Shown: positions 14,364 through 41,926 of the stretch, in pieces
How positions within the stretch are numbered: position 1 is the first letter of the stretch
How the letters are laid out: each line of letters begins with the position of its first letter
DNA from: Clytia hemisphaerica
Lineage: Eukaryota > Cnidaria > Hydrozoa > Leptothecata > Clytiidae
NCBI GenBank assembly: GCA_902728285.1
Contig: CACVBU010000237.1
Location: 2,044,565 to 2,108,564 of the forward strand
Length of the DNA: 64,000 nt
Direction of reading: 5' to 3'
Notes under the pieces: model-generated
What the model saw: the letters and a program-made list of their open reading frames with translations, nothing else
Told to the model about the DNA's origin: nothing
Databases searched by the model: none
Translations under genes and position numbers: made by a program

Positions 14364-14664
14364 CCCGTTTTTTATGAGAACATTCAAAAAGCCTTGTTCT
14401 AAACCTTTTGAGTTTTAAGCTTTAAAATGTTCTTAAAGTGTTCTTACTTTCACCATTTTGTTAATTTTTTACCTATTTTCCTAAGAAATCGGGTGTTTTA
14501 GGGTCTGCATAGACTATGCTATAGTCTAAGACAAATTCGAAAATAAAGAAAAACCTCAAACACGCAAATTAGCAGTCGGGCGGAACTTTGTCCGCAAGGG
14601 CGAAAAATAGTCGGAGGTGCTCAAGCCTTATGTTCTTATATAGTTTGTTCTTATAAAAAACGTG
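14364..14664. mobile_element. TA-type MITE with TGTTCTTA word, copy A
   Basis: The right end reads TGTTCTTATAAAAAACGTG followed by TA. The left end reads CGTTTTTTATGAGAACA and is its degenerate inverted copy. The octamer TGTTCTTA or close forms is repeated five times near both ends. AAGCCTT words precede it (14396 and 14627). Non-coding, about 300 bp. It belongs to the family described at 16582, 16960 and 41541. Confidence 0.75.
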
Positions 14665-15552
14665 TACCTTGTTACAGGTTCCCGTACAGAAAGAAAAAAT
14701 AAAATGGACTCGTCAATTTGAAACTGCCAGTCCCCACCAAGCAAAAATGCAAAATACTTTAACAAAAGTCGACAGTAGAAATATCTTTATCACTAACTGC
14801 TCCATCTCTTTCTTCAATTAACTTCCAAATGAAGATAAAGCAAACGAGACATAAAAGCCTTACGTAACGAACCTTCAATATTCTATATCGAAAAACAAAA
14901 TGACTCAACGAATAAAGATTTCAACATTTTCAATTCCTATCAACAATGATATGGCATCAAAGCCGCAAGTTTTTAATCATTTTAATTTCTTGTAATTGTT
15001 TCTCTATTAAAATGAAAACAAAACAATTAACTTTAAGAATAATTTTACTTTGTAAGAACTTGTTTATAATGTAATCTTTCCCTCGGGCATGACTTCAGAA
15101 TTTCGTGCAAACAAAAAACTATGATTTTTCTCACTAAAGATGCAGTGCAAATGCTTTCGAGTGGGTTAAACCATATTATGGGTTTTAAACCATCCAGAAC
15201 GGCAGCGCGTGGTTTTTACACAAACGCCGGATTGAAAGTAAAATCTATCGCTATATTTCAAAAAATTAATGCAGTCTTCAAAGACAAAGGAGTCACTAGA
15301 TACAATCCGTCGTCATGATTGCGACGCGTTCTAGGCGCGTTCTGGGTGGGAAATGAGTGGCTTCACTTTTTCTTGACTGGGAAAGGTTAGAGATTCTACT
15401 CTAGTCTTTCGGGCTTTAAACGCAATGGGTTTTCCCCTCAAAAAATTTAAATCTTATTGGTCAGCAGGTGTATCACGTGACATACTGACTCGCCAGCAGG
15501 CTCTTTTGATGAGTTAGAACCAAATGAGATGTAGCAACAAATTTTCAAACTT

Positions 15553-15915
15553 TTACCAGATTAGCGAAACAAAGTCTGAAGAATTTGTCCCATACTCTGG
15601 CGAAAAACTGTTTCTTTCACGTAGCTGTTTTTTTTTCTCTTCAAAATCTGATGGCAATTTCGCTTCCAATCTAGCGTTTGTGTAAAAATCACACAGATCA
15701 TGAGTGACACTGAAATCCACTGCTTCTGGTCTTTTTCTGTTTTTTTTACCCTTCATAGGACTTTTGGACCTCTCCACCAAGGAGAGATCCATTAAAATAT
15801 TTTCTCTCTGCAAAAATTTGAGCAAATAAGATTTTCCAATCAAGTTCGAATAAGCAAGAGTCAACTCTCTCATTTTCATGAAACTTTTAAAATTTTCCAC
15901 CCAATACGTCGTCAC
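15553..15915 (-). CDS. Hypothetical protein, 120 codons, possibly not real
   Basis: An intact open frame of a charged peptide (EEKKKQLRERNSF, SPMKGKKNRKRPEAVDFS) that starts inside the left end of the 15913-17623 repeat. I recognise no domain, no membrane segment and no signal peptide. It could be an old transposase exon or chance. The codon pattern is unremarkable and no splice sites are obvious. Confidence 0.25.
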   Translation of the reverse strand: MTTYWVENFKSFMKMRELTLAYSNLIGKSYLLKFLQRENILMDLSLVERSKSPMKGKKNRKRPEAVDFSVTHDLCDFYTNARLEAKLPSDFEEKKKQLRERNSFSPEYGTNSSDFVSLIW

Positions 15916-15951
15916 TTAAACAATAGAAAAAGTGACGTATTGGGTGGAACA
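15897..15951. repeat. Perfect-stem hairpin
   Basis: TCCACCCAATACGTC at 15897 pairs with GACGTATTGGGTGGA ending near 15948, with a loop of about 22 bases that holds CACTTAAACAATAG. The same TTCCACCCAATACGTC block recurs at the far end of the repeat near 17587. Confidence 0.8.
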
Positions 15952-16581
15952 AACACAGAACAGTTGCATAATTTCGTGTCATTAAGTCGTTGCAGTGGTG
16001 CATATCATGAATATAAAATTGACGAATGTAAAATTCACTTTAACAAACCCAAGGAGATAAATTAAATTTCTTTGTTCTTATAGAAAAGCTTAAGAAATTA
16101 TTTCATCATAACAAATTAGAAGCAATTTTTTGTAATTCATGACGGATATTCTAAACGGTTCGGTTTGTGACAAGTTCTTTTTGAGAAGACAAAAGAAATG
16201 GATTGACATCTAAAACAAACAGGTTATAAAAATCAGTAAAAGACGCTCTGATTGGTTTAAAAATTCAAACAATTCATTTCTATTGGCTGATCCATTTTTT
16301 AATGATTGCGTCATTAATTTTGAGTTTGAAATTTGTGGTCAGTAAAGTTTTGATTAATGATTTGAGAAAAAAATTGATATACTTCCTGTAAAAAATTAAC
16401 CAAGCATTATAGTTTCTCTCCCCTCTACTTATTCTGTCTGACATAAAAAGAGATTTTCAGACAACTCGACTGTAGGTTAATAAAGCAGATTATAATGTGT
16501 AAAAGCTCCCGCCGAAAAACTTGAAGAATGGAGTATTTGACATGTACTTATGTAACCTTTAAAGTCTACAAAATAGACTTA

Positions 16582-16863
16582 CACTGTTTTTTAAAAGAAC
16601 CAGTATAATTTTGCTTAGGCTATCGGCTGTTCTTATTTTGTTTGTCTCTTTGAGCCTCAGATTATTCTTATCCTGTTCTTTTTCATAGAATGTAATTGAG
16701 GTATTTTAGGCATTTAGTTAGTTATTCCAATTTTTACTACTTTGACCCCTGAATTGCTTGAAATTGGGTAATTTCAGGCTCAGCATTGTTCTTAAATTGT
16801 TCTTAGTTTTTGGAGGTTTTGAGCCTCATTGTTCTTATAAGATTGTTCTTATAAAAAAAGTGC
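16582..16863. mobile_element. TA-type MITE with TGTTCTTA word, copy B
   Basis: Flanked by TA at 16580-16581 and 16864-16865. The left end is CACTGTTTTTTAAAAGAAC, the right end TTCTTATAAAAAAAGTGC. The octamer TGTTCTTA or a close form occurs about seven times, several next to GAGCCTCA or CAGGCTCA. Non-coding, 282 bp. Confidence 0.85.
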
Positions 16864-16959
16864 TACTGTCAAGAAGCCAATCAAATTTAGGCATCTTCCA
16901 ACGAAAATATTAGCTGGACACTCTCAGATGTTTTCACATTTTTTGTGATATAAGGAATA

Positions 16960-17193
16960 CACGTTTATAAGGAACTCGAGGCTGAAAATGGTCCAAAAAA
17001 TACGGAATTGTTAAGGAACTGCTCAGGCTGAGAATAAGAAAACAGGTTTTAAGGAATCCAATTTTTGCGAATCCAAACTCAGCAGCTATGTAAATAAGGA
17101 ACTCGATAAGGAACTTTGAGGCTGAAATTCTCTGTAAAAATAAGGAACTCCAGGCTCAGAGCAAAGTTAAGGTTCCTTATTAAAAAAAACGTG
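16960..17193. mobile_element. TA-type MITE with TAAGGAACT word, copy C
   Basis: Flanked by TA at 16958-16959 and 17194-17195. The left end is CACGTTTATAAGGAACT, the right end GTTCCTTATTAAAAAAAACG plus TG. The nonamer TAAGGAACT or a close form occurs about eight times, four of them next to GAGGCTGA, CAGGCTGA or CAGGCTCA. Non-coding, 234 bp. It has the same termini as copy B but a different private word. Confidence 0.85.
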
Positions 17194-17623
17194 TACTAGC
17201 TAGACTTTCAACCAAAAAATAAGAGTTTAAAATCAAACCTTTCCGCAAAGCAGGAACAGAGTTATACTAACATCAACATTTATACATAATGCGAATTTCA
17301 AAGTGTTTTACTATCTAGGATGAAAATAATTCCTTCTTCTATTCTGCCCCGAAATAAATGAGTGCAAATTTCTCCCAAATCGTGTGTTTGTCAAAATATT
17401 GTGCTTAAATTAAAGGAAACACGAGTCTCATAAATGAAAAAAGGAAGACAAATTAATTAACTCCTGATAGAAAAAACTTCTAACCCGGTCAGTACCTTGA
17501 ACAAAACGTCCAAAAAATGTTAGTTCAATTCATGATATGCACCACTGCAATGACTTCACGAAATTGTGCAATTTTTTTGTTTTTGTTCCACCCAATACGT
17601 CAATTTTTTTGATTGTTTAAGTG

Positions 17624-17919
17624 TTAATTTCAAAAAATCTCAGAAGACTTTCCAGTGGTGTATATTAAGCAGTTATTGGACAAAGAGACTGCGTCCAAAT
17701 AAATGGTTTATTATCCGTTCATCGCTAAAATATTTCACGTTTTCAAGCATAATTCCAATTTATAAGCTCGTAAATTTGATTTCTTGGTAGTTGTTTATTC
17801 AAAAGTCTTATTTTTATTTTGTGACGTGACGTAACGTCAAAAAGAAGATGCTCAATTGTCATTGAACTCGTTGTGTGACGTCAATTTTTGAAATATGTAG
17901 CCTCCATGGAAGCTATATA
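17624..17919. other. Intergenic, nothing recognised
   Basis: AT-rich sequence between two repeat elements, with a short run of GTGACGT words near 17820-17845. Confidence 0.4.
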
Positions 17920-17929
17920 TTCGAAAATA

Positions 17930-18318
17930 TTGGACAGCAAAGAAGCCAATCAAATGTCGCTATTTACGCGCGTCGGATAATAATCGAAAATATCGGACAG
18001 CAAAGAACCCAATCAAAGCGAGATTATGTATCTGGAATTCTCTACGGCTACGGCTAAAGTGGCGAGGGAAATGGCGAGTAAGGCAAGTAATGGCGGGTGA
18101 AAGCAAGTTCGATATTTGACGCACGGCATTATGTCGACTTTGCTTATACGGTGTTTTGGTGTTTTTCCCGTACAGAGCAAAGTAGACAACAACGTGTCGC
18201 CTTTATTGACGACCCGTACAGGTAGCCCCGCAACCGTAGCCGTAGAATGTCTCCGATACATAATCTCGCTCAAATGTCGCTATTTACGCGCGTCGGATAT
18301 TAACATGAATTATCGGAT
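17930..18318. repeat. Tandem duplication, about 65-bp unit, second copy interrupted
   Basis: The unit starts GGACAGCAAAGAA, continues CCAATCAAATGTCGCTATTT and ends near GGATAATAATCGAAAATATC. It is present intact at 17930-17995 and again from 17995. The second copy is split by the MITE at 18018-18269 and resumes at 18270. Confidence 0.85.
18018..18269. mobile_element. 252-bp MITE with 5-bp TSD TCAAA
   Basis: The ends are inverted: GCGAGATTATGTATC at the left and GATACATAATCTCGC at the right, then CTACGGCTACGG and CCGTAGCCGTAG further in. The TSD TCAAA is at 18013-18017 and 18270-18274. The intact sister repeat unit at 17930-17995 shows the empty site CCAATCAAATGTCGC. Non-coding. Confidence 0.9.
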
Positions 18319-19789
18319 CAAATCGAATTCAAACAATGTCAATCAAATAAAAAACTACCGCTAGCACCGGGCGCTGGACTAATAACTTTCATTGTCTCGT
18401 TTCATTGGTGATCTTTGAATCTTTAAATGCACATCTATCAAATGGTAAAAAAAGTATATTTATAGGGTTTTCAAGTTTTTTTTGTTGAAATCAGCACTTT
18501 GTATGATGTCGGCACCTCGTGCAAAGATGCTATCAATGTTGATAAAAATTCGCGTGTTTTTTCATGCTGTTATAAATATTCGTGTTTTTTTCGCCGGTAG
18601 AAAAATATTACGTCACGAATATTATGAATATTATGATTTCCGAGGTTTCAAGTGGACGGTTATTCCAGCGGGAAATCACAACGGGACGATTTTTCATCTA
18701 CAGAAACGTTAGACTATGCTTAAGTCTAAGATAACTCACTATCTAAGAAATAAGCCCAAAGCCGAAGAAAATTCGCAAACAAGCTTTTTTGCCGAAAAGA
18801 GTTTACAGCCGGTAGAGTTTGCCAGTCTTCAAAACTTTCCCGCCAATTTTTCCATATACCGCCATAACGCCATCCGCCATATTTTCCCGCCTTTACTATC
18901 ACTATAATGGAGGATAACATCGTCCAGAAACGTTTGCAACATTGTTTTTGGCTCACCAAACCAAAATGGGACATAACGTTGTTTCAACATCCATCTAACG
19001 TTATATGGACGTTGTGAACGTTAGATAAACGTTAAAAGAACGTTGTGTTCCAGCTGGGAAATAACGGACTGCGAATCGCATGAATAAAATGTTGTACTTT
19101 TAACAAAATATTTTGGCATTTAAGATCCCTCCACAAAGGCATGTGCATATCGCTACTAAACAGATGAAAAATATCTTCGAGCACGTGGTGCATCATGCAT
19201 CAAAAAACCTTATCATTGATTGAAATTAATTGTTTTACTGTCCGAAATGTGTACGTCAGTACTTTTAAATACATTGCCCTTGAAAGAAAAAAAAACATGT
19301 TTCATAGCAATGGCTTATTGAAAAGATAATTCGATGTTGGTTAATTAAAAAAGGCTTTTATATTTTTTTCACACTTCGAATCCAAACATGAAAATATGAA
19401 GAAAAAAGGGGGCGTACGGGGTTTGCGATTTCCGAAATACCGAATAATTTTACCAAAATTTCCGAAATTCTGTAAAAAACACTTGCAATTCCGATACCGA
19501 TTTTTCTGGGCCTTTTTCCTTGTTTTGACTAATTTTCCATCAAATTTGATTTTTCATGTATGAATTCCGAAAAAGGGGGATAAAAACTTCATAATACCGA
19601 AATTTCAAAGCAAAAATTCATGGATTTCTGATACCGAAACAATTTCAGAATTCCGAAATACCGAAGAAATTCTGCCCGATTTCCGAAATTCTAAAGAAAA
19701 AACGGTCGATTTCCACAATTCCGAAATTTATATATAATATCCTTTCTGAAACTTTGAGTTTCCCCCTGATTTCAAATATATTCTTTGAT
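18275..19789. other. Non-coding, AACGTT and CCGAAAT word clusters
   Basis: At 18975-19061 the word AACGTT occurs about eight times and ends in GTTCCAGCTGGGA. At 19390-19730 the words TTCCGAAA and CCGAAAT recur many times in degenerate form. No gene is recognised. Confidence 0.5.
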
Positions 19790-21769
19790 ATCTATTTTAC
19801 TTTTGATCAAAAGTTATATCTCTCCAAGCCCCCCCCCTCCCCAGCGGTTTATGTGAAATGTCCGCAAAGAATCGGTAAAGTTCGGTAAAAGATACACCAT
19901 CTACTACAAAAAAATTTTCAAAATGTTTTTTCTTCGCCGAAACTAAGCTCTTCAAAGTTGAAATACTCTTCCCACTCTTCCTCGCAAAAGTCTTTATTTT
20001 CGTCTTCATCAAATTTTTTCAATGCAATTTTTAAATTTTCAGATTCAGGAATAGTTTGTCTAACAGAAAATGTATAACATGCCATAGTTTTGTTGGTTAC
20101 ATCAGTCAGAAAACACATATTAAACACGGCAATTATGAAAAATTCACTATGGTCAGAGCCCTTAAGCTTGCAATGTGCTCAGTCTTTCCAAACCACTCTC
20201 CTGCGGAAATCTCTACTTTTTATATAAACTCTTTACAAGCACTTTTCCCGCGTTCCTGTGCCCAAGGAAAGACAGACGCTTGCCTACTACTTGAATGTGT
20301 GAATTTGGAATGGAAGGATTTTTGCGTGATTGCGTGAGTTGAAGGTCCGCTGGGGTGGGGCTCTTCCAAAGTAAATAAAAATAGATTCAAACAGACAGAT
20401 TAAACCGAAGTCATTATTTTTCATCATTCTGAAATTATAATCACGAAATTATATTATATATAGGCACTGAACGGTGGAGAGCGATCGATATATCGCCTGT
20501 CTAATGTTTAAGACATCAAACAATGTGCAGGTTATTTTTACAAGTAGACTTGAGTCCACTTTTGACTGAACTTTGCTTTCTGATGATTTTGATGAAGCTG
20601 AGTCCAGTGAAGTAGACTAATTTCGCCATTTTCCATTTTTTCACTTTCGTTCTCAACAATTATAATATATAACATATTCTAAAACCCCGTCAGAGTTTAT
20701 GAAACTATAATAAAACATGAAAATACCTAAAAAATTTGAAAACAATTGGTCTCATGGTCATTGATTTCTGTTATTTTTTCTTCAAAAAGCGACTGAATCT
20801 AGTGGCATGTATTTGCTACCACCTCAAGCAAAGCCAAAAAATGCCAAATTATACCGGGCCACTTATCAGCGCCATCCAGTCGATCAAAAAGCTATAAGTG
20901 GCCCCCGGGCTAGTTTGCAAGGGACTACAACTGTTACAACTGTGTCGTTTTTTTTAAGAAACGGTGCTTTGTCTATTCAAGTTCATTTTAAAAGAAACGA
21001 CTCTTTGTCGTTTGGGGAATATTGAAGATTCCTCTCTAGCCCCTTCATGGCTTTAACCTCAAATGGTTCAAGCAGGACTGTTCCGTTTCGCTCCGGTATT
21101 ATTTTCATTACGGATGGAGTGTGTTCATATTAGTTTCGGAACACTGTATCACAGACCCACTGGGACTCCACATCACTGTAAAATTTGGCCAAAAATTTCG
21201 TCTCCAGTAAAAAAAATACCCTGGAATTCTAGCCCAACTGGGAAATTGCCTTTGATTTCACCCCCATTCAAAATTCAATGTCTAAAAATTGCACTCCAAA
21301 ACCATCCCAGACCCACTTTTATTTAACAGGTTTCAATAAAGCGAGATTGCCAACAAATTTTTGAACTCGGATTTCTAAACAAAACCTCAATTACCAAACA
21401 TCAAACCATTCCAAATTTTTCAGTTAGTATGAAAAACATTCATGACAATTTGTTTCTGATGTTGAACTTAAGTGTTAAGACTGCATAAGATTATTAGAAA
21501 GAATCATTTGTGTATTTGCGTGTAAGTGTAAAAAACCGAGAAAACTTTTTTTTAAATGGGTCACCCTTTGAGAAACCTCTTTAGAATTTTCCCTCGAAAT
21601 CAAAAAAAAATTCCTAAAAATCGTGAATTTTTCGACCCCTAAAGGGTCTTTGGAAGGTGGGAAAACTGACCTTTATTGTCCGCAAATAGCCAGCACCCAT
21701 TTTGCCTAAGTTATTCTAAGAAAGTTCGGTAAACTCCTAAAATGTCTTGGTTCGTCAAACAAACTGGAA
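19790..21769. other. Intergenic, no supported gene
   Basis: Several short open frames overlap on both strands at 19797-20337. The minus frames contain an acidic stretch (KKFDEDENKDFCEEEWEEYF) that looks protein-like, but no domain, start or splice context supports a call. The rest is AT-rich sequence. A repeated pair (AGTGGCC, near 20855 and 20897) looks like a small hairpin repeat. Confidence 0.4.
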
Positions 21770-21774
21770 CTTAC

Positions 21775-22060
21775 ACTGTAAGTCACTGTAAGTAGTGAGT
21801 CTACGACCGCAGTCTTAGGCGACCCAAAGGCTCCTCTTTTGATAGCTATTTACTCATAGATAGGAGAGAGCGCCACTCTTTGTCCCTTAATTACTCCAAT
21901 TACTCTTGATCCTTCTTTTAATTGCTGAGCATCAAGCAGAGAGGCGTCTAGTATCATTTTGAGAATCTTTGGTATGACCCGGCTGGGGGTTGAACCCACA
22001 ACCTTGCGATAACCGTAGCCGGATGCTCTGCCACTGCACCACAGTTCGCTCTACTGTGAA
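21775..22060 (-). repeat. tRNA-derived SINE
   Basis: On the minus strand, from 22060, GTGGTGCAGTGGCAGAGCAT resembles a tRNA start with an A box. GGTTGTGGGTTCAACCCC, a canonical B box, follows at the right spacing, and an acceptor-like CCAGCCGGG closes the tRNA region. A body of about 200 bp follows to near 21775. A body this long and non-tRNA argues against a plain tRNA gene. Confidence 0.75.
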
Positions 22061-23326
22061 CCATCGAATGTGTTCCACCGCCTAAGGATAGTTGGACAAA
22101 TAGCTCAATAACTCATCTTATATCGGTTAAATGGTTAACCGGTTAAATAGTAGTCTTTTTCTTTATTCCTAGAGAATTAATGAATCTAAAGTCTGTCCAA
22201 ATATAATTGGCAGTGGAAACAAGAATGCCTGTAACTTTTGATATTCAAATATAATTATGGAATTTCTTTTTGCTGGTTTTGGTTGAAAAATTCGCGATTT
22301 TTAGCGGTTAAATTTGCGATTGCCAAAATTGAGCTTTTTTTCTACTTATGCTATAACGTTCATTTTTACACCAGTGGTAGTTCAACCTTAGGTTAAGAAG
22401 TTTGTAATATTTCAAGGCAATCAGAAAAGTCCTTCGGAAGATATGGGACCCGAAATACCCCTTGGTAGCACTTTTCTGTGAAATATCAAATCTCCAACTT
22501 ATTACTAAATCCCTTAATTCCATGGTTTCATAGTTGGCGGAGGAGCGGAATCGGCCCTTTTTTCGGACGGAGTGGTAGCCTATACTAGACGTCACCCGCG
22601 TTTTTTCTACGCAATTAACGGGATAAAAAATCTCGGTTTTTAGTGAGGCACTCGCTAACGGAGTGGCGGAATTTGGCGAAAATTTAGACGGAATTACGGA
22701 AATTGGGGTCTCTGACGGAGACGGAAAATTAGACAATTTTAGTACGGAAAAACGGAATTTAGCAAAAAATTTTGCGGAATTTCGGAATTGGTAAAAGATA
22801 TTCAAAATCTGCGGAATTTTCGACAAAAATATTGAATTTCAAAGGAATTTTCGGTGACGGAATTTTGGTTCAATTTAAGACGGTTTGACGGAAATTGGAG
22901 AAAAATTGGTGGAATTGCGGAATCGGGTACCCCCTCCCTTAATGTCAAAGCCTACTCGGACTTTGCCTTTCACCATACACCGAGCGCGTTGAATTTGGGT
23001 TTTGGGATGCGCTTTTCACACCATCTTTAAGCCCGGTCTCCACTTGTCGAGCGAATCGCGCAAAAACTTATCTTGGTTGAAATTGCTTGTAGAAAAGATT
23101 ACGTCATTGAAAAAAGTTCGTGCGATTCGCTGAAAAAGTAGACGAAAGCTCAACTTTTCAGCGAACTTTTGAAAAGTAACGTCATTTTCAACCAATCGAA
23201 TGGCTTCATTTTTCTTTAAGCGAATGGTGGTTTAGTATTACGTCATTTTGTTGAAAAAAAGTCACGCAATGCCAAAAAGTCAAGATGGAGATGTTATTTG
23301 CAGAGTCTGGCGGTATTGAAACTGAA
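22061..23326. other. Non-coding, CGGAATT word cluster
   Basis: Between 22530 and 22930 the words CGGAATT, ACGGAAAT and GACGG recur many times. A minus-strand open frame over it (22308-22826) is a product of this repetition (Ser/Phe/Asn-rich) and is not called. At 23050-23280 GCGAAT and AAAAAGT words recur. No gene. Confidence 0.5.
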
Positions 23327-24016
23327 TACTAAAGTCTATTCACGATAAGTGTGCACTCTTTTTTCTTTTACCTATAAGTTTTGAAGGAATTCTTCAATCT
23401 TTATAAATTTGCTATCGTTGGAAAGATATCAGTGAAAACAATTTGAAATAAATAAATCTTTGAAATAATTCTAAAAACAAAGATGAAAATGAAGAAGAAA
23501 AAAATGAAGATCTTGTAGAGAAGGGCTATGACTTTCATTTTCACTGGAGAGATTCTTTGATCTTAGGAGGTCATCAGTGTGAAGAAATTTTACTAAAATA
23601 TTCATTCAATATAAAGTTATGATACAAAGTTGATAAGTGATTGACCCCAAAAAACAGCAGAAAACAGCAGAAAACAGCGTTTTTAGAAGACGTCAATCAG
23701 CTTATAACTTTGTTTGATATCTTTTTACAAAATGATTATTTTTGAGAAGTTTTTTCACAGTGATAACGTTCGATGATCAAGGATTCACTTCAGTGAAAAT
23801 CATAGTTATAGCACTTTTCTACGAGATCTTCATTTTTTTCTTCTTCATTTTCATATTCATTTTTAGAGTTTTTTAAAAGATTTTTTTATTTCAAATTTTT
23901 TTACTCACTGATATGATATCTTTCCAATGATACCAAATTTATAAAGATTGAAGAATTCCTTCAAAAGTTATAGGTAAAAGAAAAAAGAGTGCACACTTAT
24001 CGTGAATAGACTTTAA
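23327..24016. mobile_element. Foldback (palindromic) element, copy 2
   Basis: Starts CTAAAGTCTATTCACGATAA and ends with the complement ...GTGAATAGACTTTA. The arms match copy 1 at 912-1548 in the same order: GTGCACTC block, GAAGGAATTCTTCAATC, ATGAAGATCTTGTAGA and GTTTGATATCTTTT. The centre has tandem GCAGAAAACA words. Non-coding. Two copies with the same ends support a mobile family. Confidence 0.85.
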
Positions 24017-25555: not shown

Positions 25556-25579
25556 CTTTCTCATAATAGTGCAATGAAT

Positions 25580-28864: not shown

Positions 28865-28888
28865 TATGGCGCGCCAAAAGGCTTTTTA

Positions 28889-29101
28889 ATACCAACTTTT
28901 TTTTTTGGTACCAACTTTTTTTTTTATACCAACTTTTTTTTTTTTGGTACTAACGTTTTTTTTTTAAACCAACTTTTTTTTTTTTGGTACCAACTTTTTT
29001 TTTTGATACCAACTTTTTTTTTTTTGATGTGATACCAACTTTTTTTTTAAACCAACTTTTTTTTTTGATACCAACTTTTTTTTTTTTACCAACTTTTTTT
29101 T
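28889..29101. repeat. TACCAACTTTTTTT array, left
   Basis: About ten units of GGTACCAACTTTTTTTT or TACCAACTTTTTTTTT with slippage in the T run. The mirror array (AAAAAAAGTTGGTATC units, six to seven) is at 31268-31395. Confidence 0.9.
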
Positions 29102-29104
29102 TGA

Positions 29105-29510
29105 TATCAATGTTTTGTACAATCCCAGTCTATTTGGATTTTTGGCATTTAAGCAAATATCAATCTTTCAGCCTCTTTCGGCTCGTTTTTTTTGTGTGGC
29201 GTTCTGGTCTGTACGTTTCTTCAAGTTTGATCCGTAAATATCTTTTCCCAGCCTCTTTGTTTGATCCAGTTAAGAATTCTAGCTATGATGGTGCTGGTCA
29301 CACTATGTTCAATATGATCAAATATCTTTTTATTAGGGATAGGATAGGGTTTTCGACTTTACAAAAATGATATAGTTAGTAGATTTTATTTCATTTTAAA
29401 AAAAAAAAAGAAAAGTTGTAACATTTTATTTTTACTTGTATATATTTTTTAGTAGATATACCGAGATTTTTGGTGATTAAAGAGACATAAAAAAAAAAAA
29501 AAAAACAATA
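29105..29510 (+). mobile_element. Probable retroelement 3' end with poly(A)
   Basis: An open frame ends at 29370 (tail peptide NMIKYLFIRDRIGFSTLQK). A 3' UTR with A-rich runs near 29400 follows, then a run of about 17 A at 29490-29507. This looks like the 3' end of a LINE, but no RT motif is left and the family is not known to me. Confidence 0.35.
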
Positions 29511-29892
29511 CCAAATTTTGCCTCGATGTTTAATTGTTCAAGTGTAGAAGGGCCCTTAAATTTAAATTTAAAGTAAAGACAGTATTTTCTGTAAATTAGA
29601 GGTAGGTCGGGATTAGAAAGGGGTGACGGTACGTAATCAAACTCTAATTGCATTGTATTGAACTAAACTAGAATAGGCATTGAAAATTGTTTAATCTCAC
29701 GAAAGCAACTCTCAAAGCATCTGACAAGGAACTGAAGTGAAGAGAAGCCACAAAAACCACAACAACAAGATCACATTACATTCCAACCACAGGACAAACA
29801 TATATAACAGGCAGGAGAACTAGGAAGAAAGGAGGAACCACGCTCGATTTGAAAGCAGCGAGCGTTGATTTTTACGCATACGCGCATTATTA

Positions 29893-31085: not shown

Positions 31086-31166
31086 GTATTTTATTGCCCC
31101 ATTAAAGCCCCATCTACATCACACAAAAGAAAATAGGAGTAAACGAGACAATAATGTTGATGTTAT

Positions 31167-31262
31167 AAAACAAGGTTAGTATTACGTCGGTATTACGCCA
31201 GTACTACGTCGGTATTACGTCGATATAATGTCGGCATTATAAAAATAAATTGGCATTGTAAA
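31167..31262. repeat. GTATTACGTCG tandem words
   Basis: Five to six degenerate units of about 11 bp (GTATTACGTCG, GTATTACGCCA, GTACTACGTCG) just inside the right array of the composite element. Confidence 0.75.
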
Positions 31263-31518
31263 AAAAGTTGCTATCAAAAATAAAAAAAGTTGGTATCAAA
31301 AAAAAAAAGTTGGTATAAAAAAAAAGTTGGTATCAAAAAAAAAAGTTGGTATTAAAAAAAAAAAGTTGGTATCAAAAAAAAAAGTTGGTATTAAAAAGCC
31401 TTTTGGCGCGCCATATAAGAGGGTAAAAGACTGCCAAGTACTTGCCTCCAGCAAACTTAAGATAAGAGTTTCCCAACTTTGAAAAAAATCACAGTCAGTA
31501 AAATTTTGAGGTTTTATT

Positions 31519-32453
31519 CGGTTAGTGTAAAACACAGGTCACAGGTCACAGGTCACGGGTCACAGGTCACAGGTCATACAAATTACAGACCGGAAAACTG
31601 TAACGCACTCGTAACATACAACCCATAACATACAACTCATAACAAAAGTTCCTGAAAATAATAGATGTAATGGAAATGTAATATCAAAATATGGTATTTA
31701 GAAGACTTAAACGACAAATCATCAACCCCAAAAATTGACAACAAATGACACTTAAATTATGTAAATAATGATGTTATCTCGAAGTATGAGGTTTTGTACA
31801 CCAATTAACAATAAAATATCTATCATGCATAATAGGATGCCAACGCTGCAAGTGGATATAGATTGACAGGTTTTGAAAACAATAAATACTCCAAGAGAGC
31901 TGTTTTAGAGAGATGAAAATAGTGACGTCATTTTATCAAAAATACGAAGCAGGGGATAAAAATAATAAAACATTGACGCTATTTTCATCAATTCTTGTTA
32001 TCATACCCAAGGTGATGCAGGAGATAAAATGAGATATGACATTAGTGATTGTGAAATAGCTATTTTCCTGTTAGGGGCTGTATAAGGCAAAGGTGAGATC
32101 GATATTCGAATATTTCTTTATTCTTTGTATATAACATTCGTAACATGCGTATAACATTGAAAGGATAACTTTTTTGCATGTGTGATATAGATGTAATATA
32201 TAATACAAGTATCACAGGTCCGTGTTATACACGGCATAAAACGCGAAATCACGTGGTAAACACGTGGGATGATTTTTAGCTTTAAAATAGTTCTAGATCA
32301 ATAAAATACCTTTGGAATTATATCATTGACATTAACAACTGTTTTTCAAACATTTTTTTTGTGTTTCACAGTAATCAACGCTGACCTGCCAACACTGACC
32401 TGTGACCTGTGACCCGTGACCTGTGACCTGTGACCTGCGTTTTACACTAACCG
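31519..32453. mobile_element. 935-bp element with AGGTCAC subterminal repeats, 9-bp TSD
   Basis: Begins CGGTTAGTGTAAAACACAGG and ends with the complement GTTTTACACTAACCG. Inside both ends lie six to seven direct copies of the heptamer AGGTCAC (ACAGGTCACAGGTCAC...). The TSD GGTTTTATT is at 31510-31518 and 32454-32462. The inverted sister sequence near 34000-34025 has the uninterrupted site (GGTTTTACT in the same context). Non-coding. The 9-bp TSD suggests a Mutator-like origin. Confidence 0.93.
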
Positions 32454-34470
32454 GGTTTTATTTAGTGGAATCGTTGAAGAATACTTGCTATATCTAAGTT
32501 TTTTTAATCTGGTTTTCTTTATTTTTATCTCAGGATTTTACAGCGCTAATAGTTTAGATATAATTTTAGAACTTTGTTAAATTTTTCAGAATTTACGATG
32601 CAAAATGATACAATATTCCTAATTAATATGGTTATTGAATTTTGAAACTACATAAGTCAACTTATTTCTATTAAACTCTAGTCTTGATATCCTCTGTATT
32701 TCACATCCCTGTCTCAATAAACCGAGTGATGTTTAAAGTTTGTTTGACTTTTTTTTGATTCTTTGGGCTCTTTGCAAAGAAGACCTTTTGAAGAGGCTAG
32801 AGAGGTACAGTATTTTCCCTCCCGGGACGAAATTTTGCCAAGTTTGCCAGCGGGTCATGACACAGGGGTGTTTATGTTAGGAAAAAAGCTTTCGATTGTT
32901 GTTTTTATTCGAACGTTCGAAATTTAAAATTAGAAAGATTCGAAAGTTCGATTTTGAACGCAAGGAGTTCGAAACCGGAAGTAAAACGAGTCTAAAACAA
33001 AAACTAAGAAATAAAAATACTCAAGGCTCAGGGCGGACAAATGATTATTGAACTTTTCACAACGATTAATGAAAAAAATCATATAATTTTCCTCAGATCC
33101 GTAGAAGTAAACGTCGTAAGTTTGTACACCTGAAGTGTTTGAGTACATCTCTAAAGAGGCTCGCTCTTCCTGAACCTGAGCAGTTGTCGGGGTTTCGCGG
33201 GGTTTACATTTACGAATTGATTATGAATCTATTTTAACTTGCAATAGGCTCTTCCAGAAAATGTTCGCACATGGGGGGTGGAGGATATATTGTCCGGTGG
33301 GGTAGCCAAAAATCATAAAAATTTGCCTTGTCCTGGGGGTAAATTTGCTCTGTCCGGGAGTAATTTGGGTTGTCCGGGGGGTCAACTGATGCTTGTCTGG
33401 GGGTAAAACCTGTTTTCCGGGGGGCCAAAAGTCACTTTGTCCGGGGGGGGGGGTAAATCACTGAAAATTGTTATATCCTCCACCCCACATACTCAAATTT
33501 TTTCTGGGAAAGCCTAATTTCTAGTGTGTGACCCTATTGATATTTTGCTTGCAACTTGCGAATTGAGTGACTTGCCTGAATCGCTTCGCAATTCTTATAC
33601 ATATACACTAGTTTCCTAACATAAACACCCCTGTGTCATAGACCCGCTGGAAAACTTGGCAAAAATTTCGTCCCGGGAGGGAAAATACCTCTCTAGCCTC
33701 TTCAAAAGGTCTTCCTTGCAAAGAGCCCAGAGAATCAAAAAAGTTAAACAAACTTTAAACATCACTCGGTTTATTGAGACGGGGATGTGAAATACAGAGG
33801 ATTTCAAGACTAGAATTTGATAGAAATAAGTTGACTTATGTAGTTTCAAAATTCAATAACCATATTAATTAGGAATATTGTATCATTGCATCGTAAATTC
33901 TGAAAAATATAACAAAGTTCTAAAATTATATCTAAACTATTAGCGCTGTAAAATCCTGAGATAAAAAAAACTGAGATATAGAAAGTATTCTTCAACGATT
34001 CTACTAAGTAAAACCTCTAAATTTTACTGGCTGTGATTTTTTTCAAAGTTGGGAAACTCTTATCTTAAGTTTGCTGGAGTCAACACAAGTACTTGGCAGT
34101 CTTTTACCGCGCTGATTTTCCTATCTCTTCTTTAGATTTCCTAATTTAAACCTTAAGGAGATAAAAACAAGGCTTATCTAGTACCGGTTATAACGTGTAT
34201 TATCTCCTTAGCTTTTAAGAATTGGTATATCTAAACGCACGAGGCGACACTTTTTGAAAAAAACGAATTTAACCATCCGAAATTCCAGGTCTCTCCGCCG
34301 CGATTCTAGGTTTGATCTAAGGAAGGGCGGACGGCTTTCTCAATCATTTCTGCGTTTGAAAGATTGGATATATATAGTAATTTTTCATTTGCGCTCCCCA
34401 GCGTAGGTGAGATTTAAAGGTACATATACACGATAGCAAAACTGCTTCGCTCATGTATATTCGCTTCGCA

Positions 34471-36180
34471 AAAATAAAAAACAAACTGTACCCTTATAAT
34501 CATAAAGGTTGGTGAGTCCAGTCAGAACACAGATTTGATCTGTAGCGTCACGCTTCACCTTCACAAAAAATTTCATAATTGTCATTTTGCATTATCATAA
34601 TATACTAATAATGTTAAAAAAAGGAAAAAACTTTCAAAACAGGACAAAGCAACTTCATATTCATAATTTCCAACAGATTGCAAGGAGGGAAAAAAATCTT
34701 ATGGGAAACATTTTTGTAATCTGAAAGAATGACCTTTAAAGGGAAAAAAACGTATGTGGAAGAAAACTTCAAGTCGACAACAAAAGTTCCCATACTCTTG
34801 GGTACCTAATACCGTAAGTTGGTCTAATATCGACATGCCATAAAAAGGGTGTCGGAATTAGAGGAGGGATGTTGACATTAGACCAAGTTACGGTAGCCGG
34901 GGGGTGGGGCTGCAAATTAATTTTTCCAAAATTCTCCGACCCCCCCTCGCTTATTAAATTTTGAAATTTCTTCCAACCCCCCTGCACCCTACTTATTCCA
35001 AACCCCCCGACTAACCGAGAGTATTAGACAAACGTGGAAGAAAATTTCCAAATACAGCTTTCCACATTCAAAACACAATTATATACCGTGAGATGGGGTA
35101 ACTTGCATCAGTGGAGGCTAACATGCATAGCCCTCAAATAAATGACCTGACTGGTCATTAAAACACAAAGTTAATCAAAACAAATTTGTAAGGTATGCGA
35201 ACAAAAAGGAGAAAAGAGACTGTTTTAATCTAACGTTTCCAGTCCATCTAAAAAGAACGACAAATATCTATTAAAAAGCAACAAAAAAAGAACAACAAAC
35301 CCTAACTAATCAAAGAACAACATATTTTGCCATTCACAACTCCGACCGAAAGTGACTGTACCACCCCTACAGATTCATTCATCATTTTTTGTAACAGGAA
35401 TTAACTACATATGGTTTAAAAGAACGCAAAATTATGCATGCGAATAAGTCTCTATTTGGGTGAGCTGGAAAGATTATATGAACTAACTCATAAACAACAA
35501 AGGTTTTTCAAAGTTTTTATAGTTGACGACAAAAGGCATGTCAAAGAAGGTTCAAAAGTTCACGGCAAAAGTTAAGAAAATTTTCAAGTATGTTTGACAA
35601 CAAAACTTTTCCACATTCAAAATGCACAAAGAACATTTCAAAGTAAGTTCTGCAGAAGCTGGGTTCTGGGTTCACCTCGATTCAGCCGGTTTACCAGATG
35701 AGTTCATCTCGGTTCCATCCCCCGGTTCACCTTTTTCTAATTTATGTTTTCACTTGCCAGTTAAGTCAATGTTGTATAAGAAGAAGAACTCAGTGAAATC
35801 CAATTATCAATCAGTCCATCTTGCTCCAAGGTTGAGTTAAAACTAACCTAAGTCAGTGAAAGTTATAAAATTGTCCTGTTTTCGCAATCAAGAAATTGAA
35901 TCTCTCAACCATCAAAATGGAAACAAATTTAGATTCCCTAGTAATGCATTTTCAAAATGAGTTTCAATATTGAGGTTGGGAACTAGTTTTCTTGAAGTGT
36001 TTGATGCCTGATCATAGCAAAATGTTTTTAGTGAGACAATCAAATATTCAGATATGTTGATAATTGTTTTACTTTTCGTAGCTATTGTGCGAGATGGACA
36101 ATTTGCAGAATCATACCGTGAGAAAGGGTAACTTTCCTGAGTTACCACAGTTAATGTCAAAATTATAAACAAAGTCACGA
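34471..36180. other. Non-coding, small TIR element at 34811-34894
   Basis: TACCGTAAGTTGGTCTAA at 34812 is mirrored by TTAGACCAAGTTACGGTA ending at 34894, an 84-bp hairpin element. Related TACCGTGAGA...GGGTAACTT words occur near 35085 and 36115. No gene is supported. Confidence 0.55.
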
Positions 36181-37100
36181 AAACTTTCGACAGAATATAA
36201 TGCTTGAATAACAGAATTTTGGCCCAAATTTTTTGGCCCCTAGTGGAAAAAGTCTTGATTGTCCTGACATTTTGACGAACACGATGAGAGAAATATAGAA
36301 ATAGTGGATATTTAGGACTGCTCTGTTTTAGTCGGACGTCAAATTTTTTATTTAAAAAGTGTCGGTGTTGATATTTCTTAATCAGATCAAATAGTTACAG
36401 ACAGACAGGATGCTGGGAAATTTAACTCTTGTGTCAAGAAAAATTTCTCTCAAGTGAAAAGAAAACTATGACTGTAAAAGGTGGAGTGCAATTTCCTTCC
36501 CACTGCTAAAAGTGAGGAAAAAGTCAACAAATATATACTTCCCTGACCCTGTTGGTGCACAAAGTTATGTGTTGTGTTTTGTTGAATCCAAAATGTTATG
36601 GTGGATAAAACTGATTATATGATTTTTCCAAATGATAATCGCCACAGCAGAGCAATAAATTCACTAAACTGGTAGCTAGTTGGTAGAGATTTCCAAAAGC
36701 TTCCAGGTCGATAAAATTCTTCCAGTAAATATTCTTCGAATAAAAAATTCACAAAATGGTTTCGAAAAATAAAAATAAAAAGATCAAAACCATAACAACG
36801 AAAATATCAACCAATCAGTTGTCTGATAGTACGAAAATATCAACCAATCAGCTGTCTCATAGGTGAAGGAAGAGATACAAAATATGCGGAAACGACGAAA
36901 TGTCTCTTTTGGAAAAAAGCCCTAACTCGGACAATTTCGGTGCCGTAAAGATCAACTTTATTAACGAAATCATCTACCAAACCGAGATTGATACCTATAT
37001 CTGGAAGAGAAACACAACCTTGAACGAAATAATTATCTACATTCAACAGATGGGAACTAAATTTTCATTTTCCTTCTGCGCTCCCCTGGTATATAGAGTT
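36181..37100. other. Intergenic, nothing firm
   Basis: A short tandem duplication (CGAAAATATCAACCAATCAG twice) occurs near 36785-36860. Opposed open frames at 36840-37103 have no recognised domain. Confidence 0.35.
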
Positions 37101-38120
37101 TAAAGGTACGCACACACTATAGCAAAACTGCTTCGCTCATGTATATTCGCTTCGCAAAAACCCCTTGGAAAATCAAGGCTTAGGCCCCCCTTGAAAATTT
37201 CGTCAATACCCCTGTACAGTTTAAAAATGGAATAGCCCAATTTATTCATACTTAAAATTTAAAACCTCTTTTGGCACTTTTATTACGTCGATTGGGGTAT
37301 AAACAATTTTTTTAATTTCAAAATTTGAAAATCAAAATTTTTTTGTATTTTTCATTTTTCAAATTTTGAAATTTGAAAATTTTTACTTCTTTTCAAATTT
37401 CAAAATTTGAAATTCATTTGGCACTTTCGTTACTTCGATTGAAGAGCAAAGTAATGAACAAAAATTAAGTGAAAATAAAATTAAATGAAAGTTAAAAATG
37501 CTAAAACTCACTTGCAAGACGATGATTCGGTGTAATGTCTCTTCGATATCATCGCTGGTTACTTTATTGGGATAAACTTTCGCGGCGATTAAATTTCGCG
37601 GATTTGGGTCCCATCGCGAAAATCTGCAAAATTAAGTCCCATTGGAAATTTGGAAGGGCGTCATCCACGAAGTATTTCTAAACAAAACTCAAATAAACCA
37701 GCTGCACTTGAAGGTCACCTGAATAAAAGAGCTGAAAAGTTTGAAAAAGGTAAAAGACGAAAAGCTTAACAGTGTAACGCGTGATTTGCGAATGTGCAAA
37801 ATCGATAAAAAGCAACGTGCTTTTGATTCAAAAATGTCAAAATTGCCGAAATTGACTTTAAGTTAATGTTAGAAAAGATAAAATAAGATTGGAATCAGCC
37901 TGAAAAATATTCTTCAGAAACAAATATGTAATATAATATTCCTTTTGTCATTCCTAAAATCTTAAAGATTTTCAGAAAGTTATCATTTTTTAAAACTAAG
38001 GTTAGTTAGTGAACTAATTAACTAGTGAACTTTGGTGAACTGTTGCAAGCGACTCTAGAAGCTTTGAACGACGTTTGAAGAGGCATGCAAAAATCTACCA
38101 TTTTAAGACCATGCTTCATA

Positions 38121-38270
38121 ATAGACCTGATCGGAGTTTTTGATTGTTTCGAGTGTATTACAATAGAAATCTCTTAGGAATTCCTCGAGGGAATTCTATT
38201 GTAATACTCCCGAAACAATCCTACAATGGATCGCTTTTTTAGAAAAATCAAAAACTCCGATTAGGCCTAT
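38121..38270. repeat. 150-bp palindromic element
   Basis: ATAGACCTGATCGGAGTTTT at the left pairs with AAAACTCCGATTAGGCCTAT at the right. The inner arms GATTGTTTCGAG...TTACAATAGAA and TTCTATTGTAATACTCCCG pair as well, around a central CCTCGAGG. Non-coding foldback sequence. Confidence 0.8.
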
Positions 38271-38337
38271 TGATAAAATGAAAAACCCTTAAACGCCTCT
38301 ACCCAAACAACGCCCGAATTGCCGAACACAAAAACTA

Positions 38338-38588
38338 CAGGGTGTCCCTAATAAAAGTATCGAGTTTGAACATGCGATTGAGTAGAAAAGTTTGTGTGTG
38401 TTATCGCTAAAATATAAGAACGTTCTCCATCACACAGGCTTATTACAAAAGGTAATTACAACGTATAAATTAATCATAATGACAAAGAAAAAAGAGGGAG
38501 AGCTTAAAATACAATTTTGTGAATACACACTTAAAACTTTCTACTCAATCGCATGTTCAAACTCGATACTTTTATTAGGGACACCCTG
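38338..38588. mobile_element. 251-bp Tc1/mariner-type MITE
   Basis: Starts CAGGGTGTCCCTAATAAAAG and ends with its exact complement, flanked by TA on both sides (38336-38337 and 38589-38590). The TIR is about 55 bp and near perfect (TATCGAGTTTGAACATGCGA and onward). The interior is AT-rich and non-coding. TA target sites and CAGGGTG-type ends are typical of Tc1/mariner elements. Confidence 0.92.
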
Positions 38589-39005
38589 TATATTACTATT
38601 AAACTATCTATTATTATTTATAGGTTCTTTTGAAATTTCACCATTAAAATTTTCGACGGTGCAATCATTCAATATTTTCATTTAGAAATTCATAGCCACC
38701 TTTCTTTAGCGCTTTATTAAGCATTTTCCAGATTGCGAGAAAAGTCGTCTATGACGACGTCTGGGACCGCTATTCAAGACATAAAAACGAAAATTTTCAC
38801 ACGAAAAAAATGACACAGAAGGACGACTTCTTCTTGAATTCAATTAAAACTATTGTCTTTTGATTTTTGAGGCATAAGTAGACTAAAAATTGCCATAAAT
38901 TTTATTCTTAGTTAACATTTTTTACAGATTTTCTTTTTTTGTTTTCAAAAATTTCTCGCGAGCATAAACTTTCACAAATAGCCCTTTCAAGAATTTTCGA
39001 AGATA

Positions 39006-39218
39006 CCTTATCGGCCAAAACTTAGGCGGCCCTAAGTGACTAAATTTTGGCTTGGTGACTAAAATTAGGGCCGACTAAAAATTTGGGCTAAATTAACTGT
39101 AAATAGAACCGCTTAGGCGGTCCTTAGTGACTAAATTTTCACGAGGCGACTAAAATAAGGGTCGACTAATAATTAAGGCCGACTAAAATTAAGGCCGGCT
39201 AAGTTTTGGCCGATAAGG
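39006..39218. mobile_element. 213-bp TA-flanked MITE with GACTAAAATTAAGG words
   Basis: The left end CCTTATCGGCCAAAACTTAG and the right end (complement) are flanked by TA at 39004-39005 and 39219-39220. Inside, the words GACTAAA, GGCCGACTAA and TTAGGCGG recur about ten times. Non-coding. Confidence 0.8.
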
Positions 39219-39355
39219 TATTTACTTTCAAGGTATTTACTTTCGCGAAAAGGGATAAAGTTTGATATTATTCAACTATGAAAAAAGTATGAATGATTAT
39301 AAAATAAACTTATGTTCCGCTTTCAAAATTTTGAAGCGTCTTGTTCTTGACGTAT

Positions 39356-39948
39356 TTAACCATCATTTTTAAACAGAACTCTCCCTTTAATCAAGAACTG
39401 TGGATTCCAATCAGGTTGCAAAGTACGATTGGAAACGGCACCGAATCCATTTGCAGTAAAATAACTACTGTCATTACCTGCACGATAAATTGTTACAAAA
39501 GCATCTGCACCAGTGCCTTCATCATTCCAAACATATTGCCAATCAGACATTGCTCCCTCCTGTACGTAATTTTCTTTTAAACAATAGATTTCGCCAGACT
39601 GAGGGTCACTTCCACCAGTGACAACATTGCCAAGACCTTTATAACCCGGTGGACAAATTGTCTTCCAGATAGATAGATCAGAAGAAGCGAATGATCCACT
39701 ATCATCCCAGATCAGGTCGTATGATTGAGGGTCTTTCAGAATGTCATCCTTGGAATGTGTCTGCACTCTAAGTAAATAACCATATTCTGGTTGGGTTCGT
39801 CTTCCAGCTATAAAAATGTCACCGAGGTTGTAGAATCCATTTTGTGCTGCTCTAGTCCGCCATACACTACAACGAACGTTGGCACTTGAACGTGTGTCGT
39901 CCCACTTTTTATCAAAACTGTTGAATTTTTGAAGATAGGGGACTTGAA
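39356..39948 (-). CDS. Vps62-like (DUF946) protein, last coding exon
   Basis: The exon runs from an acceptor (CTTTTTTTCTAG, AG at 39949-39950) to a stop at 39356 and codes for about 196 residues, entering in phase 2. It holds three related units: KKWDDTRSSANVRCSVWRT, then LIWDDSGSFASSDLSIWKT with PPGYKGLGNVV, then YVWNDEGTGADAFVTIYRA. The W-D-D/W-N-D, aromatic and GYxxLG pattern is that of Vps62/DUF946 proteins. These are known in fungi, plants and invertebrates; the family name comes from yeast vacuolar sorting and the biochemical role is unclear. The first exons must lie at higher coordinates, but I could not identify them among the repeats. The last residues (GRVLFKNDG) are plausible as a C-terminus. 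No defects are seen. Confidence 0.75.
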
Positions 39949-40900
39949 CTAGAAAAAAAGAGTAGAAATTTAATGTGATAAATATTTGTGGGAATTAAAT
40001 TTCGCGGATTTCGTGGATGATTGGGTGTCATCCGCAAAATTAAGTCCTTTAGGGAATTTGAAAACCCACCTGCAAAAATAAAATTCTCACCAAAAAAAGG
40101 AACTTTTTTTGCAATCTACGAAATTGTATGATTTTATTGTATTATGTTGTTTTGTCTACGCAAGGAATTAGTCTACGTGAGGGCACGCAGCAGTCGAAAA
40201 AGATGACTTTTTATTCGATTTGAAAGAAAGTTTTATGATATCATGATATGTAACACGCTGTAATACTCACGTTTAAGTTGCGTAATTTCAACTGTTATGA
40301 AAGGAATGATTCAAATTTTCGTAGAAGAACTGTGTTTTTATGATTCTGACTGGTATGTCTGTTATAGCTACTGTGGCTGATATTGGAAACCCTGTTCCTA
40401 TCTCAGATGGGCGGTCAAAATTAGGTGGCCGCCTGACTTAACATAATCGGCCACCTATCTTAAGTTAGCTCCAATACTACGCAAATTTCAATATTATGGT
40501 CACGTGTCTGCGATTTGATTGGCTGTGCTCGAAAACAAGCTTGCCATGCTTGCCATTTGATTGGTCAAACAGGAATTTTACTTTCGTTTTCGTGATAAAA
40601 ACAAACCGAAAAAGATTCAAACTTATCTTTTTTTTCAAATTAAAGGTGTTATGGGAATCTTTTCGCAGTGTTGTCGTAACATTTCAATGTGTCCAATGAA
40701 AGGCAATGAAAAGCATTTCTTAGCAATCGATCAGATTATATTCTACAAGCTCTGTTCTGCTTCTAGTAGGGGGAAATTTGTTTGTTTTTTGAAGTCGCCG
40801 ATTGTTTTGGTCAAGCACTTGTTATTACTTAGGTTCCAATTTTTTTCAGACACTTTGGTGTGATTTTCGGACAAATATGACGGTATCAGGCAAAAATTAC
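39949..40900. other. Intron or upstream region of the Vps62-like gene
   Basis: No further exon was found. CGCGAAATTAA words near 40000-40045 recur from about 37580-37640. A GGTGGCC hairpin lies at 40418-40455. Plus-strand open frames at 40496-40863 are not supported. Confidence 0.35.
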
Positions 40901-41236
40901 AGGGTTAAAAATTAATGAAAATTTTAGCTTGAGAAAACGGAGACATGTTGTATATATTTGAAAAGCTCTCAAAAATTTAAGATTAGAGATATATTGCAAG
41001 TATAGGTGATTTCTGTACCTAACTCGAGATATTAACCCTTAAAAACAGTGTTTTTTCAGCAAGAAACAGCTGTTTTGTCCAGTTTTTGCGCTTTTTGAAG
41101 CTCAATATCTCAAGTTATAGCTACTGAAATCACCTATACTTGCAATATATCTCTAATCTTAGTTTTTTGAGAGCTTTCCAAAAATATATAACAGGTCTCC
41201 GTTTTCTCAAGCTGAAATTTTCATTAATTTTTGACC
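40901..41236. repeat. 336-bp palindromic foldback element
   Basis: GGGTTAAAAATTAATGAAAA at the left is mirrored at the right (TTTTCATTAATTTTTGACCC). The match continues through GCTTGAGAAAACGGAGAC, TTAAGATTAGAGATATATTG and CAAGTATAGGTGATTTC to a centre near 41070 with AACAGTGTTTTT and AAACAGCTGTTTTG. Non-coding. Confidence 0.88.
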
Positions 41237-41540
41237 CACTTGAACTGAAAACCTAAGGATTTTGATGTACAAAATGTAATAACATCGGTTCATTTCGGGT
41301 TGGTGTAATTTAAGATGCGCGATCTAACGATTTACAATGCACAATTCGCGATCCTTGCATAAAATATGTTAAACACAGAGAACAAAACAAAAGGACAAGA
41401 CAAATCACAACAAATTTGCGTTTTTTCTGAAGGGTTAGTAAATAAATAAGGTTATTTTCGGTTCAACGATTAGAAAATAACTAGAATGAATTTATATATT
41501 ATATGCATGAAAATATAAAAAAAAAACTCTAAAAGCAATA

Positions 41541-41926
41541 CATGTTTTTTTTTTATAAGCAAGTGTATGCCCCTTGGTCAGGCTCGAGTATGCTTAAGCT
41601 TTCAAAGCATCCAGACATAGAATATGCTTATTATATGCTTAAGAATTATTATGCTTTTGATTTACCCAACCAAATTTTTTAGTAAAATCTTTAAAATTTT
41701 GTTAATATTCGATTCAAAAAGCATTTAAATTTTTGAGCAGTGGAATGTGGCTAGGCGCGGAATGTATTTTTTTACTTGACCACTTGCAAACCTTTTTGAA
41801 TAGAAAGAGATTGGCTACTTGAAAAATATTTCAGGCTAGCGTATATGCTTATGTTATGCTTAGGAAATCTGCAAATCTGAGCCTTCATATGCTTATAAGT
41901 GTTATGCTTATAAAAAAAAAAACATG
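41541..41926. mobile_element. TA-type MITE with TATGCTTA word, copy D
   Basis: Flanked by TA at 41539-41540 and 41927-41928. The left end is CATGTTTTTTTTTTATAAGC, the right end GCTTATAAAAAAAAAAACAT plus G. The octamer TATGCTTA occurs about nine times, with CAGGCTCGAG and GAGCCTTCA beside two of them. Non-coding, 386 bp. It has the same end layout as copies A-C, with a third private word. Confidence 0.87.

Follow-up and report, generated by a model that had tools for sequence, protein, structure and literature searches.

Four short repeated elements, A to D, lie in a 64,000-nucleotide stretch of the genome of Clytia hemisphaerica (contig CACVBU010000237.1, positions 2,044,565 to 2,108,564; hereafter the window), each joining a shared terminus to a short word that is repeated several times within the element. 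They are probably non-autonomous cut-and-paste elements of one radiation that insert at TA and follow a common end plan, with the words as putative binding sites of a changing domain. Judging from the sequences, it is likely that the words serve as binding sites. Evidence for this reading includes the abundance of the shared tip, a register of four words that differ jointly between families, and the segregation of the words by lineage.

All four copies described in the first-pass annotation are present, with their shared terminus and their repeated words. Exact 8-mer counts on both strands are four of TGTTCTTA in A, five of TGTTCTTA in B, six of GTTCCTTA in C and seven of TATGCTTA in D, so that the five to nine repeats first reported hold for B, C and D and not for A. 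In the eukaryotic genome searched (417 Mb, 951 contigs), the 18-base terminus CTTATAAAAAAACGTGTA occurs at 931 + 916 = 1847 exact places, and its reversed control at none. A looser pattern, with a non-T base before CTTA and CATG or CGTG tips, occurs at 212 + 239 places (control 0 and 1), and C-type ends with TTCCTTATAAAAAAACGTGTA number 52 (control 0). A chance match of A-runs and AT-rich octamers could be proposed for an AT-rich genome (GC content in the window is 34-39% per 4 kb block), and equally frequent 8-mers do occur in other stretches of the window. Such an 8-mer is found in 126 of 1274 equal-length stretches for A, 76 of 1275 for B, 49 of 1276 for C and 53 of 1273 for D, and the first 25 of these stretches per element fall within or at the edges of a ATGGGAAT array near 4.2-6.2 kb. 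Word frequency alone is thus not distinctive, whereas the tie of the words to tip and lineage is. Chance is refuted by the tip counts given above and by shuffling of the register triplets (see below). Order-1 Markov simulations also speak against it, reaching the observed word count in 8 of 2000 runs for A and in 0 of 2000 for each of B, C and D, and its probability is negligible. The outcomes that the first-pass annotation had named as fatal to its proposal, a terminus that is merely a chance A-run and words scattered at random, are not seen in the material examined, where the words are non-random over 50 copies.

The end plan common to A-D consists of a tip with CAYG (CACT in B), a T-tract and ATAAG. 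The GAGCCT-type word previously placed in this layout is borne out, since AGCC or AGGCT occurs within 60 bases in 61 of 75 ends, as against 14% of random 60-base stretches, and lies 23-31 bases from the A-tract in 47 of the 75. Ten of the 28 listed left ends read exactly TA-CACG, the remainder being degraded, spurious or different; the left-hand TA was outside the search pattern, whereas the right-hand TA was part of it. Copies at loci L012, L023, L029, L030 and L033 have TA on both sides and no longer sequence in common, and the flanks of well-kept copies fit a TA target duplication. The paired copies thus have the properties of miniature inverted-repeat transposable elements (MITEs): they are mostly 115-540 bp, with inverted tips, TA flanks where well kept and a very large number of exact tips, and are taken to lack coding capacity from their length alone. 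MITEs of the Tc1/mariner (Stowaway) or PIF type are likewise short, with inverted tips, a TA or TWA duplication and high copy number. Those MITEs are not known for many repeated, family-specific subterminal words.

The arrangement of the words was compared in 11 double-word ends picked from 15 elements (A, B, C, D1, two D2, D3, D4, D5, E and F; 95 bases each), with A_L012, C_win, D1_L046 and D3_L067 excluded and the single-word ends of the same elements, which are of a different build, outside the comparison. Four homologous words stand at alignment columns 20, 35, 72 and 83, each consisting of TAAG, with few substitutions, and a triplet. The triplet is AAC in A, B and E, GAA in C (with one GAG), CAT in the D ends (with one TAT, in D3) and AAT in F, and all four triplets are identical in 8 of the 11 rows. 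Identical pairs within rows number 55 of 66, compared with a mean of 20.7 when rows are shuffled at each site, and none of 20000 shuffles reaches that number; when each class is represented by a single row, the values are 21 of 24 and 5.2 (again none of 20000). Agreement falls from 0.83 to 0.18 or less when the frame is moved 6-9 columns upstream or 3-15 downstream, and a shift of 1-2 upstream gives 0.88 because the constant TAAG half is then taken in. In these 11 ends, the earlier proposal that the half joined to the terminus is fixed while the inner half has changed therefore stands. It is not plausible that four sites each reached the same new triplet independently in every family without selection or homogenisation. 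Homogenisation without any protein reader would have gene conversion, slippage or gap repair make the words uniform in each founder, whose descendants then keep them, the differences between families being accidents of their founders. Copies within a family do descend from one founder, and the double-word ends resemble a tandem repeat of a terminal unit; the spacers among the four words, however, are not homogenised, families that differ in their cores have the same fixed register, and there is little change in the TAAG half while the triplet varies. This account is accordingly unlikely.

The segregation of words was followed in 50 paired elements, detected by script in the window and in the loci fetched. 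Among the window's own copies this set caught D alone, and a few loci (L015, L027, L065) were called twice through alternative left ends. When the elements are grouped by dominant word, the sums of GTTCTTA, TTCCTTA and ATGCTTA (T-, C- and G-type) are 124/6/1 in 29 elements, a group that also takes in ties and family F, where all three words are absent, 0/6/0 in 2 elements and 1/2/74 in 19. In 45 of the 50, one of these words occurs twice or more; two copies of two words are present only in L015:1301-1752, a call that overlaps a smaller one. L015:1301-1752 seems to be a T-type copy inserted in a C-type copy, with the right half of the host clear and its left half not recognisable. Most loci were retrieved by a pattern ending in CTTA..TA, by which the terminal word and right-hand TA are preselected and the internal words are not. 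Families E (L014:923-1293, with GTTCTTA) and F (L030:1147-1417, with ATTCTTA eight times and the tip CAYGC) were met in the flanks of fetched loci, free of this selection.

The base preceding CTTA also tracks the tip: CCTTA goes with ACGTG 19 times and with ACATG 4 times, and GCTTA 6 and 66 times, respectively. This tally is a hand count over 100 listed places of the looser pattern, from which five ACTTA places were dropped, and its Fisher p of 2.5e-11 is a guide only, as the count includes related copies and takes the two ends of an element separately. The G-type word is common to subfamilies of about 115-170, 370-390, 277, 324 and 357 bp. In a comparison of 15 elements at E up to 1e-4, with 55 bp trimmed from both ends, core matches among these subfamilies are confined to segments of 31-36 bp in the pairs D3/D5 and D4/D5; D4 and D5 are related along their length at 68%. 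D1, D2, D3 and the D4/D5 pair hence have a word in common and little core, which indicates that its presence is not explained simply by hitchhiking with the interior of a single founder. The description of the words as private to each element is therefore correct for lineages and incorrect for single elements, given that one triplet is common to five D subfamilies and another to A, B and E.

A mechanism can be proposed in which the tip would be read by the conserved catalytic part of the transposase, and the repeated words by a separate, faster-changing DNA-binding domain or protein similar to TNPA. A lineage with altered binding specificity would then mobilise only those ends in which most words match. 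If only matching ends moved, successful lineages would show all words rewritten jointly, with the tip, the register and the TAAG half kept. Lineages with different words would cease to mobilise, repress or titrate one another. Binding of the words by a host factor, such as a silencer or a transcription factor, is quite improbable, because near-exclusive word classes that track tip variants better fit several specificities encoded by the elements, and the binding protein in the CACTA precedent is itself element-encoded (PMC2613891, in the text available).

As to the identity of the transposon that owns these ends, a CACTA/CMC-type element is the most likely candidate, at somewhat less than even chances. 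It is favoured on the grounds that CA..TG or CCC tips, 2-bp duplications and arrays of subterminal words occur in this group, and that Tnp2 elements of the same genome share the design of a fixed tip and private words. CMCT lineages mostly have CA..TG tips in common and 2-5 bp duplications (PMC12730594, as far as its accessible part goes), and the MITEs have CAYG..CRTG tips with TA and subterminal arrays of short repeated motifs. The TA duplication also agrees with a Tc1/mariner or pogo-type owner, for which the words would be extra helix-turn-helix sites. Among the scored candidates, profile matches number 77 for DDE_1 (PF03184, pogo-like), 115 for DDE_3 (PF13358, Tc1-like) and 106 for Tnp2 (PF02992, CACTA), of which five, two and eight were read, the eight being six loci with two also read as a second copy. 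Five pogo-like loci have no such tip within the 2.6-3.0 kb read, which possibly falls short of the element ends, and two DDE_3 array units, read over more than one period, have no A-F tips. Since many short subterminal words are moreover a habit of CACTA elements, a Tc1/mariner or pogo-type owner is doubtful. None of the six Tnp2 loci is bounded by A-F ends in the stretches fetched, which may not extend to the ends of L079, L089 and L090, and inspection by eye of the 40 longest open frames in the fetched loci showed no transposase. The owner may be dead, belong to another superfamily, or be among the places not read. The possibility that solo ends mark hidden long elements was rejected: at least 18 are present, and most match other copies and look degraded or interrupted, the membership of L054 and L056 being unclear. 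Also rejected was C170:1963900-1966300 as a 2.2 kb element with matched tips; it is really a separate end and a D1 copy that another repeat interrupts, and inspection by eye shows no transposase in it.

A second group of ends, borne by Tnp2 elements, shows the same combination of an unchanging tip and a word that keeps AGT and varies in its other half, with one element in a mixed state. The C103 element, with an open reading frame of 765 amino acids (a relative at L077 is 75% identical and matches Transposase_21 and DUF1258), is bounded by TA-CCCTTAAGAAAAA at about C103:57095 and an inverted partner at about C103:69930. AGTATGC occurs 15 and 16 times in its two end zones and 0 times in the 11.4 kb between. 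The related C860 element, with tips of the same kind, has 10 and 16 AGTATGC and 8 and 12 AGTCTGC in its end zones, with 2 and 0 between. At L078, a Tnp2 locus with one tip of this kind, AGTACAC and AGTAAAC occur nine times each within 640 bp, and 1 and 0 times in the other 5.4 kb. The end zones of all three were drawn after inspection; sliding-window word maxima are 16, 16 and 9, versus Markov maxima of 5 of 440, 5 of 410 and 5 of 190. The mixed C860 element suggests intermediate stages of word rewriting. Tentatively, whole-set switches of specificity may thus have occurred, in which a four-word template at a fixed register was rewritten in concert (AAC, GAA, CAT, AAT) under an unchanged tip, the CCCTTAAG Tnp2 group having changed likewise (ATG, CTG, ACA and AAA after AGT), with C860 bearing two words together. 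The ATTCTTATAA cluster of L080 was considered as the right end of a Tnp2 element and rejected, as a second copy continues beyond it to another tip and another word. A 120 bp stretch inside the C860 element (L077 5851-5970), whose tip is CACGTTTTTTTTATAAGAATA and whose end holds three words (GTTCTAA, GTTCTTA, TTTCTTA), is possibly a nested mixed-word MITE.

Several observations weigh against a single radiation with a changing binding domain. No transposase-bearing element with A-F ends is found among the matches read, in a search that did not include PF01359 mariner, hAT, PIF/Harbinger and others, and by eye none of the 52 exact C-type ends has a listed PF02992, PF13358 or PF03184 match within 12 kb inward. 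The full-length TRC-like elements carry a different tip, CCCTTAAG. Words with a different constant half would escape the CTTA..TA pattern, only families E and F being unselected; related copies are not independent, and the triplet classes number only four. D1 lacks words 3 and 4, and its cores of just 42-60 bp make a weak test of core sharing, while the C-type class is represented among the 50 paired elements by two, one with a single word. Further points, unfavourable or unexplained, come from the Tnp2 elements: L079 has no word array, the array of L089 lies in the middle of the locus and not at an end, the 5' part of C860/C103 is not shared by the C852 and C739 copies in the stretches fetched, the left tip of C860 is without TA, and only one end of L078 was read.

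The statement in the first-pass annotation that no described family has this pattern goes too far. Subterminal repeats are recognised by TNPA in maize Spm/En, and two soybean CACTA subfamilies have conserved tips and different subterminal motifs, for which coevolution with the DNA-binding protein has been proposed (PMC2613891, from the available part of the text). The soybean Tgmt*/Tgm1 elements thus resemble the MITEs described here in combining a conserved tip with a family-specific repeated subterminal motif, whose variability was proposed to parallel the diversity of DNA-binding proteins; a TCTTA domain is common to the En-1 and Tgmt* motifs (PMC2613891), and the GTTCTTA word contains it. 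They differ in belonging to plants, in their 13-bp CACTA tips and 3-bp duplication and in comprising two subfamilies, and the available text describes neither a fixed four-site register nor MITE subfamilies that share words (PMC2613891). Among animal elements, CCC tips and 2-bp duplications mark TRC elements (PMC1636069; PMC4298943, each as far as accessible), such as the CACTA element SmTRC1, and both features recur in C103 here. A CCC tip is found on C103, C860 and L078, as opposed to the CAYG tips of the MITEs, which are mostly CACG, CATG or CACT. The term "subterminal" is absent from the accessible text on SmTRC1, which mentions an internal repeated motif for one element (PMC1636069). The general principle, divergence of subterminal motifs under conserved tips, is therefore already in print (PMC2613891, in the portion available), and the pattern in Clytia is real, ordinary in kind and unusual in clarity. 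Searches of the open-licence literature yielded no description of a concerted switch of four sites at a fixed register across MITE families, or of mixed-word elements. Such a system bears on the long-standing question of how a transposase and its many binding sites change jointly without loss of activity. The conserved tip isolates the variable part, the four homologous sites provide internal replication, and very many copies with a full-length mixed-word element form a fossil series in which word and DNA-binding domain can be paired. If the interpretation is true, fossil copies would document, in readable form, how the DNA-binding specificity of transposons evolved in nature by way of intermediates with mixed words.

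The positions of the window features are collected in the table. The copy reported as element C is real, and its start is probably near 16934 and not at 16960, as the tip at 16960 seems to belong to the inner one of a tandem pair of terminal units. Relatives of A elsewhere are about 210-256 bp, and 36 of the 39 other scored places that match A cover only its internal repeat or little beyond.

Table. Elements and element parts in the window (positions count from the first base of the window).
Feature	Position	Strand	Description
Element A	14364..14666		T-type, word TGTTCTTA; terminus CACG right, CCCG left
Separate repeat within element A	14510..14624		query positions ~147-261
Double-word right end of A	14631..14666	+	TGTTCTTATATAGTTTGTTCTTATAAAAAACGTG + TA
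Element B	16582..16863		word TTGTTCTTA, terminus CACT; words of the right arm follow the register seen in other families
Element C	16934..17195		word AGTTCCTTA; 8 TTCCTTA in the extended element
Element D	41539..41928		word TATGCTTA x7, CATG terminus, flanked by TA on each side
Four register words of D	41844..41928	-	ungapped offsets 18, 33, 66 and 77 from the end; all TAAGCATA read inward
Truncated D-like end	60722..60804	+	CTTGCTTATAAAAAAAACATGTA with CGAGCCTGACCAAGG

Other repeats and transposase genes were seen in passing. The long array of ATGGGAAT-type repeats occupies 4591-6222 of the window and has a strong strand asymmetry, with a GC skew of 0.41 over 4001-8000. Of six proteins of the window that were scanned, one is a LINE-type reverse transcriptase. 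Pogo-like open reading frames with identical DDE_1 scores and open frames of 470-511 amino acids are present at G000:C112:342729 and nine further places, and the identity of the scores suggests recent activity. A dense GGCGGCCGCCTA word array at L090 5199-5447 adjoins an open reading frame that by eye has the look of an IS30 or retroviral-type integrase. Loci L075 (G000:C625:20600-25200) and L076 (G000:C254:3386600-3390800) are tandem arrays with units of about 4.0-4.4 kb, and in both units read one strand seems by eye to code for a Rep-like protein, with an HUH-type motif and Walker A, and the opposite strand for a Tc1-like DDE protein. These units have unit-specific iterated words near a palindrome, and regularly spaced DDE_3 matches also occur on C353, C491, C248, C61, C672, C907, C924 and C303. 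In the window, inverted arrays of GATACCAACTTTTT-type words at 28883-29110 and 31236-31397 resemble the iterated words of the units with Rep and DDE proteins.

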